DNA of 64,000 nucleotides. Origin: a candidate division KSB1 bacterium (GTDB taxonomy: Bacteria > Zhuqueibacterota > Zhuqueibacteria > Residuimicrobiales > Krinioviventaceae). The stretch is taken from positions 1 through 64,000 of the forward strand of contig JAXHMJ010000003.1 of NCBI GenBank assembly GCA_034521575.1, read 5' to 3'. Shown here in pieces: positions 19,017 to 51,017 of the stretch (the stretch's first letter is position 1; the number at the start of each line of letters is the position of its first letter). Position numbers and translations under genes: made by a program. Below the pieces are notes generated by a model. It was given only the letters and a program-made list of their open reading frames with translations. It searched no databases and was not told the DNA's origin.

Positions 19017-20593
<1,577 letters not shown>

Positions 20594-20758: not shown

Positions 20759-21141
20759 GGGCCTATAGCTCAGCTGGTTAGAGCGTCCCGAGTAGTCGGG
20801 AAGATCACTGGTTGGTTTATAGGTTCAATTAAAAAGGGCCTATAGCTCAGCTGGTTAGAGCGTCCCGAGTAGTCGGGAAGATCACTGGTTGGTTTATAGG
20901 TTCAATTAAAAAGGGCCTATAGCTCAGCTGGTTAGAGCGCCCCGAGTAGTCGGGAAGATCACTGGTTGGTTTATAGGTTCAATTAAAAAGGGCCTATAGC
21001 TCAGCTGGTTAGAGCGCCGAGTAGTCGGGAAGATCACTGGTTGGTTTATAGGTTCAATTAAAAAGGGCCTATAGCTCAGCTGGTTAGAGCGCCCCGAGTA
21101 GTCGGGAAGATCACTGGTTGGTTTATAGGTTCAATTACAAA
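20759..21141 (+). repeat. five tandem tRNA-Ile-like units in the rRNA spacer
   Basis: Five units start at 20759, 20836, 20913, 20990 and 21065, with lengths 77, 77, 77, 75 and 77. Each begins with the same 27 bases as the downstream tRNA-Ile (acceptor strand and D arm), except that the real gene lacks one A. The anticodon arm is replaced by TCCCGA-GTAG-TCGGGA, a perfect 6-bp hairpin in units 1 and 2. The unit then has GATCACTGGTT, an extra block ending TATAGGTTC, then CAATT. GGGCCTATA pairs with TATAGGTTC over 9 bases (two G-U), so each unit can close like an acceptor stem. Units differ only by T/C before the hairpin, a CC deletion in unit 4, and AAAAA versus ACAAA at the end of unit 5. Confidence 0.9.
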
Positions 21142-21214
<73 letters not shown>

Positions 21215-21235
21215 CACAGCTGACAAGCGTCAGTT

Positions 21236-21245: not shown

Positions 21246-21298
21246 CAATATGATAGTAGAGAGCCAAATATAATCTGCTGCGGGTAGTAGATATTTGG

Positions 21299-24262
<2,964 letters not shown>

Positions 24263-49552: not shown

Positions 49553-49911
<359 letters not shown>

Positions 49912-50540: not shown

Positions 50541-51017
50541 TTATTTGAAAAACGCGAACAACAACCCCATAATCGCCCCGATCTGCCCGATCCAAAAGAT
50601 GAACATCCAGCGGATCATATTACGTTCTACATGGGCGATATTGACATTGACTTTGCCAATCTCTTCTGTCATGCGCTCATTAACTTTGCCAATCTCTTCC
50701 GTCATGTGCTCATTGACTTTGGAACTTTCTATGGTGATACGTTCGTTGACCTTGCCGATTTCTACTGTGATCCGGTTATCCAGACGCTGTTCCGTTTGTG
50801 ATATCGCAAGCTTAAGCTCTCCTGTTTCCTTGGTAATCCGTTCATTGAATTTACCGATTTCTTTGGTCAAGCGATGCTCAAATTTGGCTTCAACAATCGT
50901 CAGCATCTCTTGTTTTTGCTCTTCTTTACTCACATTCATCAAATTAACAAGACTTTGAGAGCCTTCTTCTCCCAACTTTTCTCGCAACGGTTTTTCAATT
51001 ACAGCAACTTTTGCCAT
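50541..51017 (-). CDS. coiled-coil protein with C-terminal membrane anchor
   Basis: The 158-residue protein starts MAKVAVIEKPLREKLGEEGS with a GAGGGTAC-type ribosome site upstream on the minus strand. Residues about 50-130 form a long coiled coil built from an 11-residue motif, (T/M)xEIGKVNERM, repeated at least four times. The C-terminus is one hydrophobic helix (MIRWMFIFWIGQIGAIMGLLFAFF). It resembles the DUF1640/CCDC90-like and Bdr-like small coiled-coil membrane proteins of spirochaetes and environmental bacteria, whose role is unknown. Codon use is ordinary. It stands alone in a gene-poor stretch. Confidence 0.65.
   Translation of the reverse strand: MAKVAVIEKPLREKLGEEGSQSLVNLMNVSKEEQKQEMLTIVEAKFEHRLTKEIGKFNERITKETGELKLAISQTEQRLDNRITVEIGKVNERITIESSKVNEHMTEEIGKVNERMTEEIGKVNVNIAHVERNMIRWMFIFWIGQIGAIMGLLFAFFK

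Follow-up and report, generated by a model that had tools for sequence, protein, structure and literature searches.

Why does a ribosomal RNA operon of a candidate division KSB1 bacterium carry, between its 16S and 23S genes, a row of sequences that begin as tRNA-Ile and end as something else? We analysed a window of 64,000 nucleotides, positions 1 to 64,000 of contig 3 (JAXHMJ010000003.1, 787 kb) in an assembly of 5 contigs and 5.26 Mb (GCA_034521575.1), in which five tandem tRNA-Ile-like units had been predicted ahead of the tRNA-Ile gene and several functions proposed for them. The results indicate that a tRNA-directed break-and-amplify process probably left the array as a remnant, and that its units are probably not working tRNA-like RNAs.

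The 16S rRNA gene (19019-20583, on the forward strand as are the window genes and tRNA fragments below; Rfam RF00177, 1571.8 bits) and the 23S rRNA gene (21297-24262; Rfam RF02541) enclose a spacer in which five head-to-tail units (20759-21141) lie directly 5' of an intact tRNA-Ile(GAT) gene (21142-21215). ARAGORN, Rfam and Tandem Repeats Finder (period 77, score 778, 97% matches) confirmed this predicted arrangement. Units 1 (20759-20835) and 2 (20836-20912) are 77 bp long and the same in sequence, with the palindrome TCCCGA-GTAG-TCGGGA matching exactly at 20786-20801 in unit 1 and lying at 20863-20878 in unit 2. The palindromes of unit 3 (20913-20989, 77 bp) and unit 5 (21065-21141, 77 bp, tail ACAAA) start with C instead of T (20940-20955 and 21092-21107, respectively), and in unit 4 (20990-21064, 75 bp) the 5' stem of the palindrome is short by two bases. 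Each unit runs from the 5' acceptor strand and D arm of tRNA-Ile through the palindrome, which stands in the place of the anticodon arm, to AGATCACTGGTT, which corresponds to the variable loop, the 5' T-stem strand and the start of the T-loop, and then into a foreign, A/T-rich tail that contains TATAGGTTC and terminates in AATTAAAAA. The predicted exchange of the anticodon arm for this hairpin held: with at most one mismatch, the pattern TCCCGANNNNTCGGGA matched six times in the window, four of them in the array, where 0.16 matches were expected. Besides the first palindrome base and the two-base loss in unit 4, the units vary at one further place, the last tail base (A or C), and with only these three variable places the array therefore contains no covariation.

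An acceptor-like closure of the units had also been proposed, and the stem is real: TATAGGTTC in the tail pairs with GGGCCTATA and closes the stem of each unit, and units 1 and 2 fold as a single long hairpin of -33.6 kcal/mol (z -5.5), with none of the shuffled sequences folding as well. Two other claims stood in part. The 5' acceptor strand and D arm show no differences among the five units, as stated; the intact tRNA-Ile lacks A14, while the D arm of the units is of the normal tRNA-Ile type, and therefore the units and the gene differ at that base. The missing A14 is either a sequencing error or a real defect in what own-genome search and a tRNA census identified as the genome's only close match to tRNA-Ile(GAT). 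Likewise, the anticodon loop is gone, and of the T arm, which had been described as absent, the 5' stem strand and the start of the loop remain in AGATCACTGGTT. No unit has the 7-nt anticodon loop, complete T arm and acceptor of a functional tRNA gene, the loop being GTAG and the 3' strands of the T arm and acceptor being replaced. ARAGORN and Rfam called only 21142-21215 (Rfam 70.3 bits) as a tRNA in this region, in agreement with the view that the units do not decode.

We defined a class of fragments, Psi5, by a 5' part that matches the adjacent tRNA exactly through the D arm, a palindrome at the anticodon arm, a match ending at or near the T-loop, an A/T-rich tail, and an intact parent tRNA downstream. 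The window units have all of these features, the D arm match excepting the base that is missing in the parent. Psi3 fragments are the mirror image: 3' fragments lying downstream, with the intact tRNA in the middle.

Four further fragment loci were found in the same genome, at tRNA-Pro, tRNA-Arg, tRNA-Asp and tRNA-fMet. The tRNA-Arg locus (49553-49899) is a mirror-image, 3' fragment array inside the window itself, in which the intact parent tRNA-Arg(TCT) (49553-49627) is followed by two Psi3 copies (49712-49763, 92% identity; 49848-49899, 90% identity) in a tandem repeat of period 136. The first copy spans tRNA positions 24-75 with a degenerate anticodon arm and is followed by its own terminator. 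tRNA-Pro(TGG), on contig 5 from position 427402 (locus L170, 1501-2330), has seven Psi3 fragments downstream with a period of 108, each carrying the palindrome TTCCGATGCATCGGAA where the anticodon arm would be and each with its own terminator. Of the four, the Asp and fMet loci have a GIY-YIG nuclease gene as well as tRNA fragments, and no such gene was seen beside tRNA-Arg or tRNA-Pro. Elsewhere in the window, 50645-50721 is a tandem repeat of 2.3 copies of 33 bp, and contig 2 has clusters of a TCCCGAxxxTCGGGA palindrome within REP-like repeats that are a few hundred bp long (L064, L077-L090).

Comparison with other rRNA spacers set this one apart within its genome and phylum. In the second rRNA operon, on contig 5, the spacer contains tRNA-Ala alone and lacks the array; the two operons divide the usual spacer tRNAs between them, Ile in one and Ala in the other, and show differences at about 30 places. 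A 16S-23S spacer was found in only one other genome of the order, and it is an ordinary Ile-Ala one. Searches of family, order and phylum relatives for the units found none, the matches being to generic tRNA 5' sequence only, and a tRNA 5' half joined to this palindrome with a short loop was absent from the other genomes among 82 of the phylum. Two scans of viral contigs for the units found nothing.

A pattern scan across genomes for pairs of tRNA-Ile-like 5' halves spaced by 61-91 bp identified ten loci. Six of them have the design seen in the window: five of these are in Bacteroidota, and the sixth is in a Phycisphaerae rRNA spacer, which has the same layout as the window's spacer and a GIY-YIG gene in addition. 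The array design is not unique to this genome. The remaining four loci (L044, L046, L050, L052), gammaproteobacterial and consisting of plain 5' halves with no palindrome, were set aside. A palindrome search in the genomes of the scan loci found further Psi5 arrays: 11 units upstream of tRNA-Arg(TCT) in a cultured Belliella isolate, six at tRNA-Pro(TGG) and three at tRNA-Ala(GGC), with Psi5 fragments also upstream of tRNA-Val, of tRNA-Ile2 (Belliella and Lunatimonas among the hosts) and, in two further Cyclobacteriaceae, of tRNA-Asn. Across several Bacteroidota, Psi5 fragments precede tRNA-Ile, Ile2/Met, Arg, Pro, Ala, Val and Asn genes. Every array takes its 5' part from the adjacent tRNA and carries, at the anticodon arm, a palindrome of about the same length as the arm; the palindrome differs by locus (TCCCGA..TCGGGA, TCCTGA..TCAGGA, TTCCGATTACAATCGGAA, TCCGCC..GGCGGA). 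In 13 of 15 families the match of the 5' fragment to its parent stops within or close to the T-loop or T-stem, as read from short local alignments. At the Belliella tRNA-Ile2 locus a palindrome occupies the T loop of the 3' fragments as well as the anticodon loop. The architecture recurs over many tRNA types in at least three phyla, and in whole or in part at the four other loci of this genome. Our searches of open-licence papers returned no description of a palindrome-bearing tRNA fragment class, which seems undescribed in that literature.

Several array loci have a short ORF directly 3' of the tRNA with a GIY-YIG-like N-terminus. In its full form the layout consists of 5' fragments, intact tRNA, terminator, GIY-YIG gene and then palindrome-bearing 3' fragments, and single loci can be without one or more of these parts. 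We counted a GIY-YIG gene as tRNA-linked when a PF01541 ORF lay at most 400 bp 3' of a tRNA on the same strand. This applied to 14 of 20 loci in array-bearing genomes, a biased set since these were picked for arrays, and to 4 of the 29 best-scoring loci in other genomes of the phylum, and all four of the latter carry partial tRNA copies. We estimate that adjacency to tRNAs would arise by chance in under 0.5% of cases. The tRNA-linked proteins belong to PF01541, and for the protein of the Asp locus the nearest PDB entry is the UPF0213 protein BH0048 (1zg2, E 2e-12); NCBIfam has no model for these GIY-YIG proteins, and PHROG endonuclease families gave no match for three of four. In the present genome a tRNA-linked cassette is found at the Asp and fMet loci and not at tRNA-Ile, where a PF01541 search of contig 3 gave no match near 21 kb. 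No 3' fragments of tRNA-Ile were found downstream in the 15 kb around the locus.

As neither a nuclease gene nor 3' fragments are present at tRNA-Ile, we read the array as the upstream, 5' fragment half of the recurrent architecture and as the tandem-amplified remnant of a tRNA-linked GIY-YIG break-and-amplify process, with a probability of roughly 50%. In this process a tRNA-linked GIY-YIG nuclease would cut the tRNA gene around the T-loop and the anticodon loop, a role that we infer for the UPF0213-like proteins of the array loci, and repair of the cut gene would duplicate pieces of it. A palindrome replacing the anticodon arm may block re-cutting and would at the same time end decoding by that copy. 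Uncut, non-decoding copies would accumulate and expand by recombination while selection would retain one intact tRNA, the innermost, and every pre-rRNA would contain the tRNA-Ile array as inert spacer RNA. Two suggestions of the original prediction, that the units are part of the rRNA transcript and that they may be an expanding tandem duplication, are upheld in this reading. The shared unit design of independent arrays, the frequency of tRNA-linked GIY-YIG genes, the breakpoints at the T-loop or T-stem, and the order of 5' fragments upstream and 3' fragments downstream with the GIY-YIG gene between support the model; the absence of a GIY-YIG gene near the tRNA-Ile array and at the Arg and Pro loci, the closeness of the proteins to UPF0213 and the mismatch between 5' and 3' fragment numbers count against it. 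Because of these unequal numbers, strictly nested insertion of a tRNA-GIY-YIG cassette, which fits part of the Val locus, fails elsewhere, and the model needs expansion as a further step.

A process of this kind has a counterpart in phage. SegB, a free-standing homing endonuclease of phages T4 and T6, is likewise a small GIY-YIG nuclease encoded beside tRNA genes; the SegB of phage T6 makes its cuts within such genes, with a preference for RAWTSGAAC, and its catalytic activity is required, along with recombination genes, for tandem amplification of a tRNA segment (PMC13096335). By our own reading, the preferred sequence would be the reverse complement of the T-loop. The differences are that SegB belongs to phage and not to a chromosome, that the segment it amplifies carries a full-length tRNA and segB, and that the system, as far as the available part of the paper describes it, has neither the palindrome-for-anticodon-arm swap nor arrays of 5' and 3' fragments (PMC13096335). 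In contrast to SegB, the tRNA-linked proteins of the array loci are UPF0213-like and putative nucleases. We tentatively propose, at somewhat less than even odds, that these loci represent a new class of selfish element on tRNA genes in at least three phyla, in which a GIY-YIG nuclease would break the gene, an intact tRNA would be supplied or preserved, and palindrome-immunised halves would pile up on both sides, even in rRNA operons. Few bacterial loci are as constrained as tRNA and rRNA genes, yet these repeatedly gather arrays of broken tRNA pieces that bear palindromes, with a tiny nuclease gene alongside. If the nuclease is the cause of the arrays, the SegB principle of a homing nuclease amplifying tRNA segments would extend to bacterial chromosomes, a role would be suggested for some UPF0213-like GIY-YIG proteins, and the duplication, breakage and replacement of tRNA genes would have a testable explanation.

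REP sequences and Rickettsia palindromic elements are short palindromes dispersed in genomes and found also within genes, and the palindromes of the arrays are like them in this respect. Mobile elements of this sort could have entered the loops of spare tRNA copies, in which case the arrays would be ordinary tandem duplications and the GIY-YIG gene a bystander. Dispersal is seen: TCCCGAN{3,8}TCGGGA has 41 sites in this genome, where a control has 2, and 60 in Belliella, the Asp-locus palindrome TCCCGATGCTCGGGA is found again on contig 2 in REP-like clusters, the Pro-array palindrome of genome G103 also sits between ribosomal protein genes, and palindromes occur in D and T loops too. However, about 50 dispersed palindromes in 5 Mb would rarely land in a 75-bp fragment, and most fragments have one, usually exactly at the anticodon-arm site and of about the arm's length. 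Unlike REP and Rickettsia elements, the array palindromes lie in the loops of tRNA fragments flanking an intact copy and mostly replace the anticodon arm. As such insertion would also leave the GIY-YIG genes unexplained, we consider this origin rather unlikely.

The break-and-amplify reading has also to be weighed against selection on the units as functional structured RNAs, such as tRNA-like decoys, processing spacers or leader elements. Stable tRNA-like RNAs, decoys and processing substrates had all been suggested originally. The units lie in a transcribed leader and can fold strongly, in the Val array (z -4.9) as well as in the window, and at an orthologous tRNA-Asn locus two related Cyclobacteriaceae species have both kept a unit, with identical bases at 46 of 50 tail positions versus 118 of 148 aligned leader positions (Fisher p 0.05). 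The slightly greater conservation of the tail is a hint of constraint. This same pair has two units in one species and one in the other, so that the refuting outcome named originally, random copy number with the pairing not preserved, is borne out only in part: copy number does vary and the palindrome is kept. Against selection, none of 26 pairs in the nine distinct units of the Arg array, the most informative one, changed on both sides, and six pairs depart only by breaking; compensatory change, for which covariance analysis had been suggested, is absent there, and the units of the window are too uniform to be informative. Moreover, the acceptor-like closure is not general (z -4.9 to +0.2 in 15 families), the mirror-image 3' arrays have different ends, and occurrence is sporadic, with the specific pattern in 5 of 196 Cyclobacteriaceae and in no other of the 82 phylum genomes. 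Fragment arrays flank other tRNA genes, often beside a GIY-YIG gene, and therefore look like selfish-element debris and not working RNAs. A functional role for the units is thus unlikely in our judgement, and tRNA-like fragments in rRNA spacers should not necessarily be taken for functional RNAs.

Slippage or unequal crossing-over, acting on a tRNA gene that had been duplicated in part and followed by drift, would need no special machinery. It would suit the near-identity of the units and the shift in copy number between related species. The 5'-upstream, 3'-downstream polarity is topologically expected from any tandem duplication, and because of this we dropped fragment polarity as evidence. 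But drift does not account for palindromes that occupy one and the same site in the fragments of many tRNAs in several phyla, and the swap of palindrome for arm has already been found in further unrelated tRNA genes, which makes this explanation distinctly improbable. Tandem tRNA units with non-functional copies are present in the tRNA-Pro/His clusters of Photobacterium phosphoreum; these are not known to have a conserved palindrome swap or to lie in an rRNA spacer. An assembly artefact, for which one could cite that the array is known from assembled contigs, that the tRNA-Ile gene lacks A14 and that the rRNA operons differ, is very hard to credit, because the array lies in a 787-kb contig of a five-contig assembly, its units have real differences, and arrays occur at other tRNAs in the genome and, with 11 units, in the Belliella isolate.

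The break-and-amplify remnant that we favour appears to differ, finally, from the scars of tyrosine-recombinase integration, which are partial tRNA copies beside an intact gene. Such scars resemble the four loci set aside from the scan, whereas the array units are just 77 bp long and palindrome-bearing, and no integrase was noticed near the array in the ORF listing. The four loci, gammaproteobacterial or related proteobacterial, are tRNA-Ile2 loci in which the upstream 5' half ends in the anticodon loop. Three of them sit downstream of rpoD-like genes, and several look like integrative-element sites. At a further tRNA-Ile2 locus (L074, 1890-6015), which has an upstream fragment, a copy of tRNA positions 31-76 and palindrome-bearing 3' fragments lie about 3.7 kb downstream, and an element with an integrase-like ORF lies between the tRNA and these downstream fragments.
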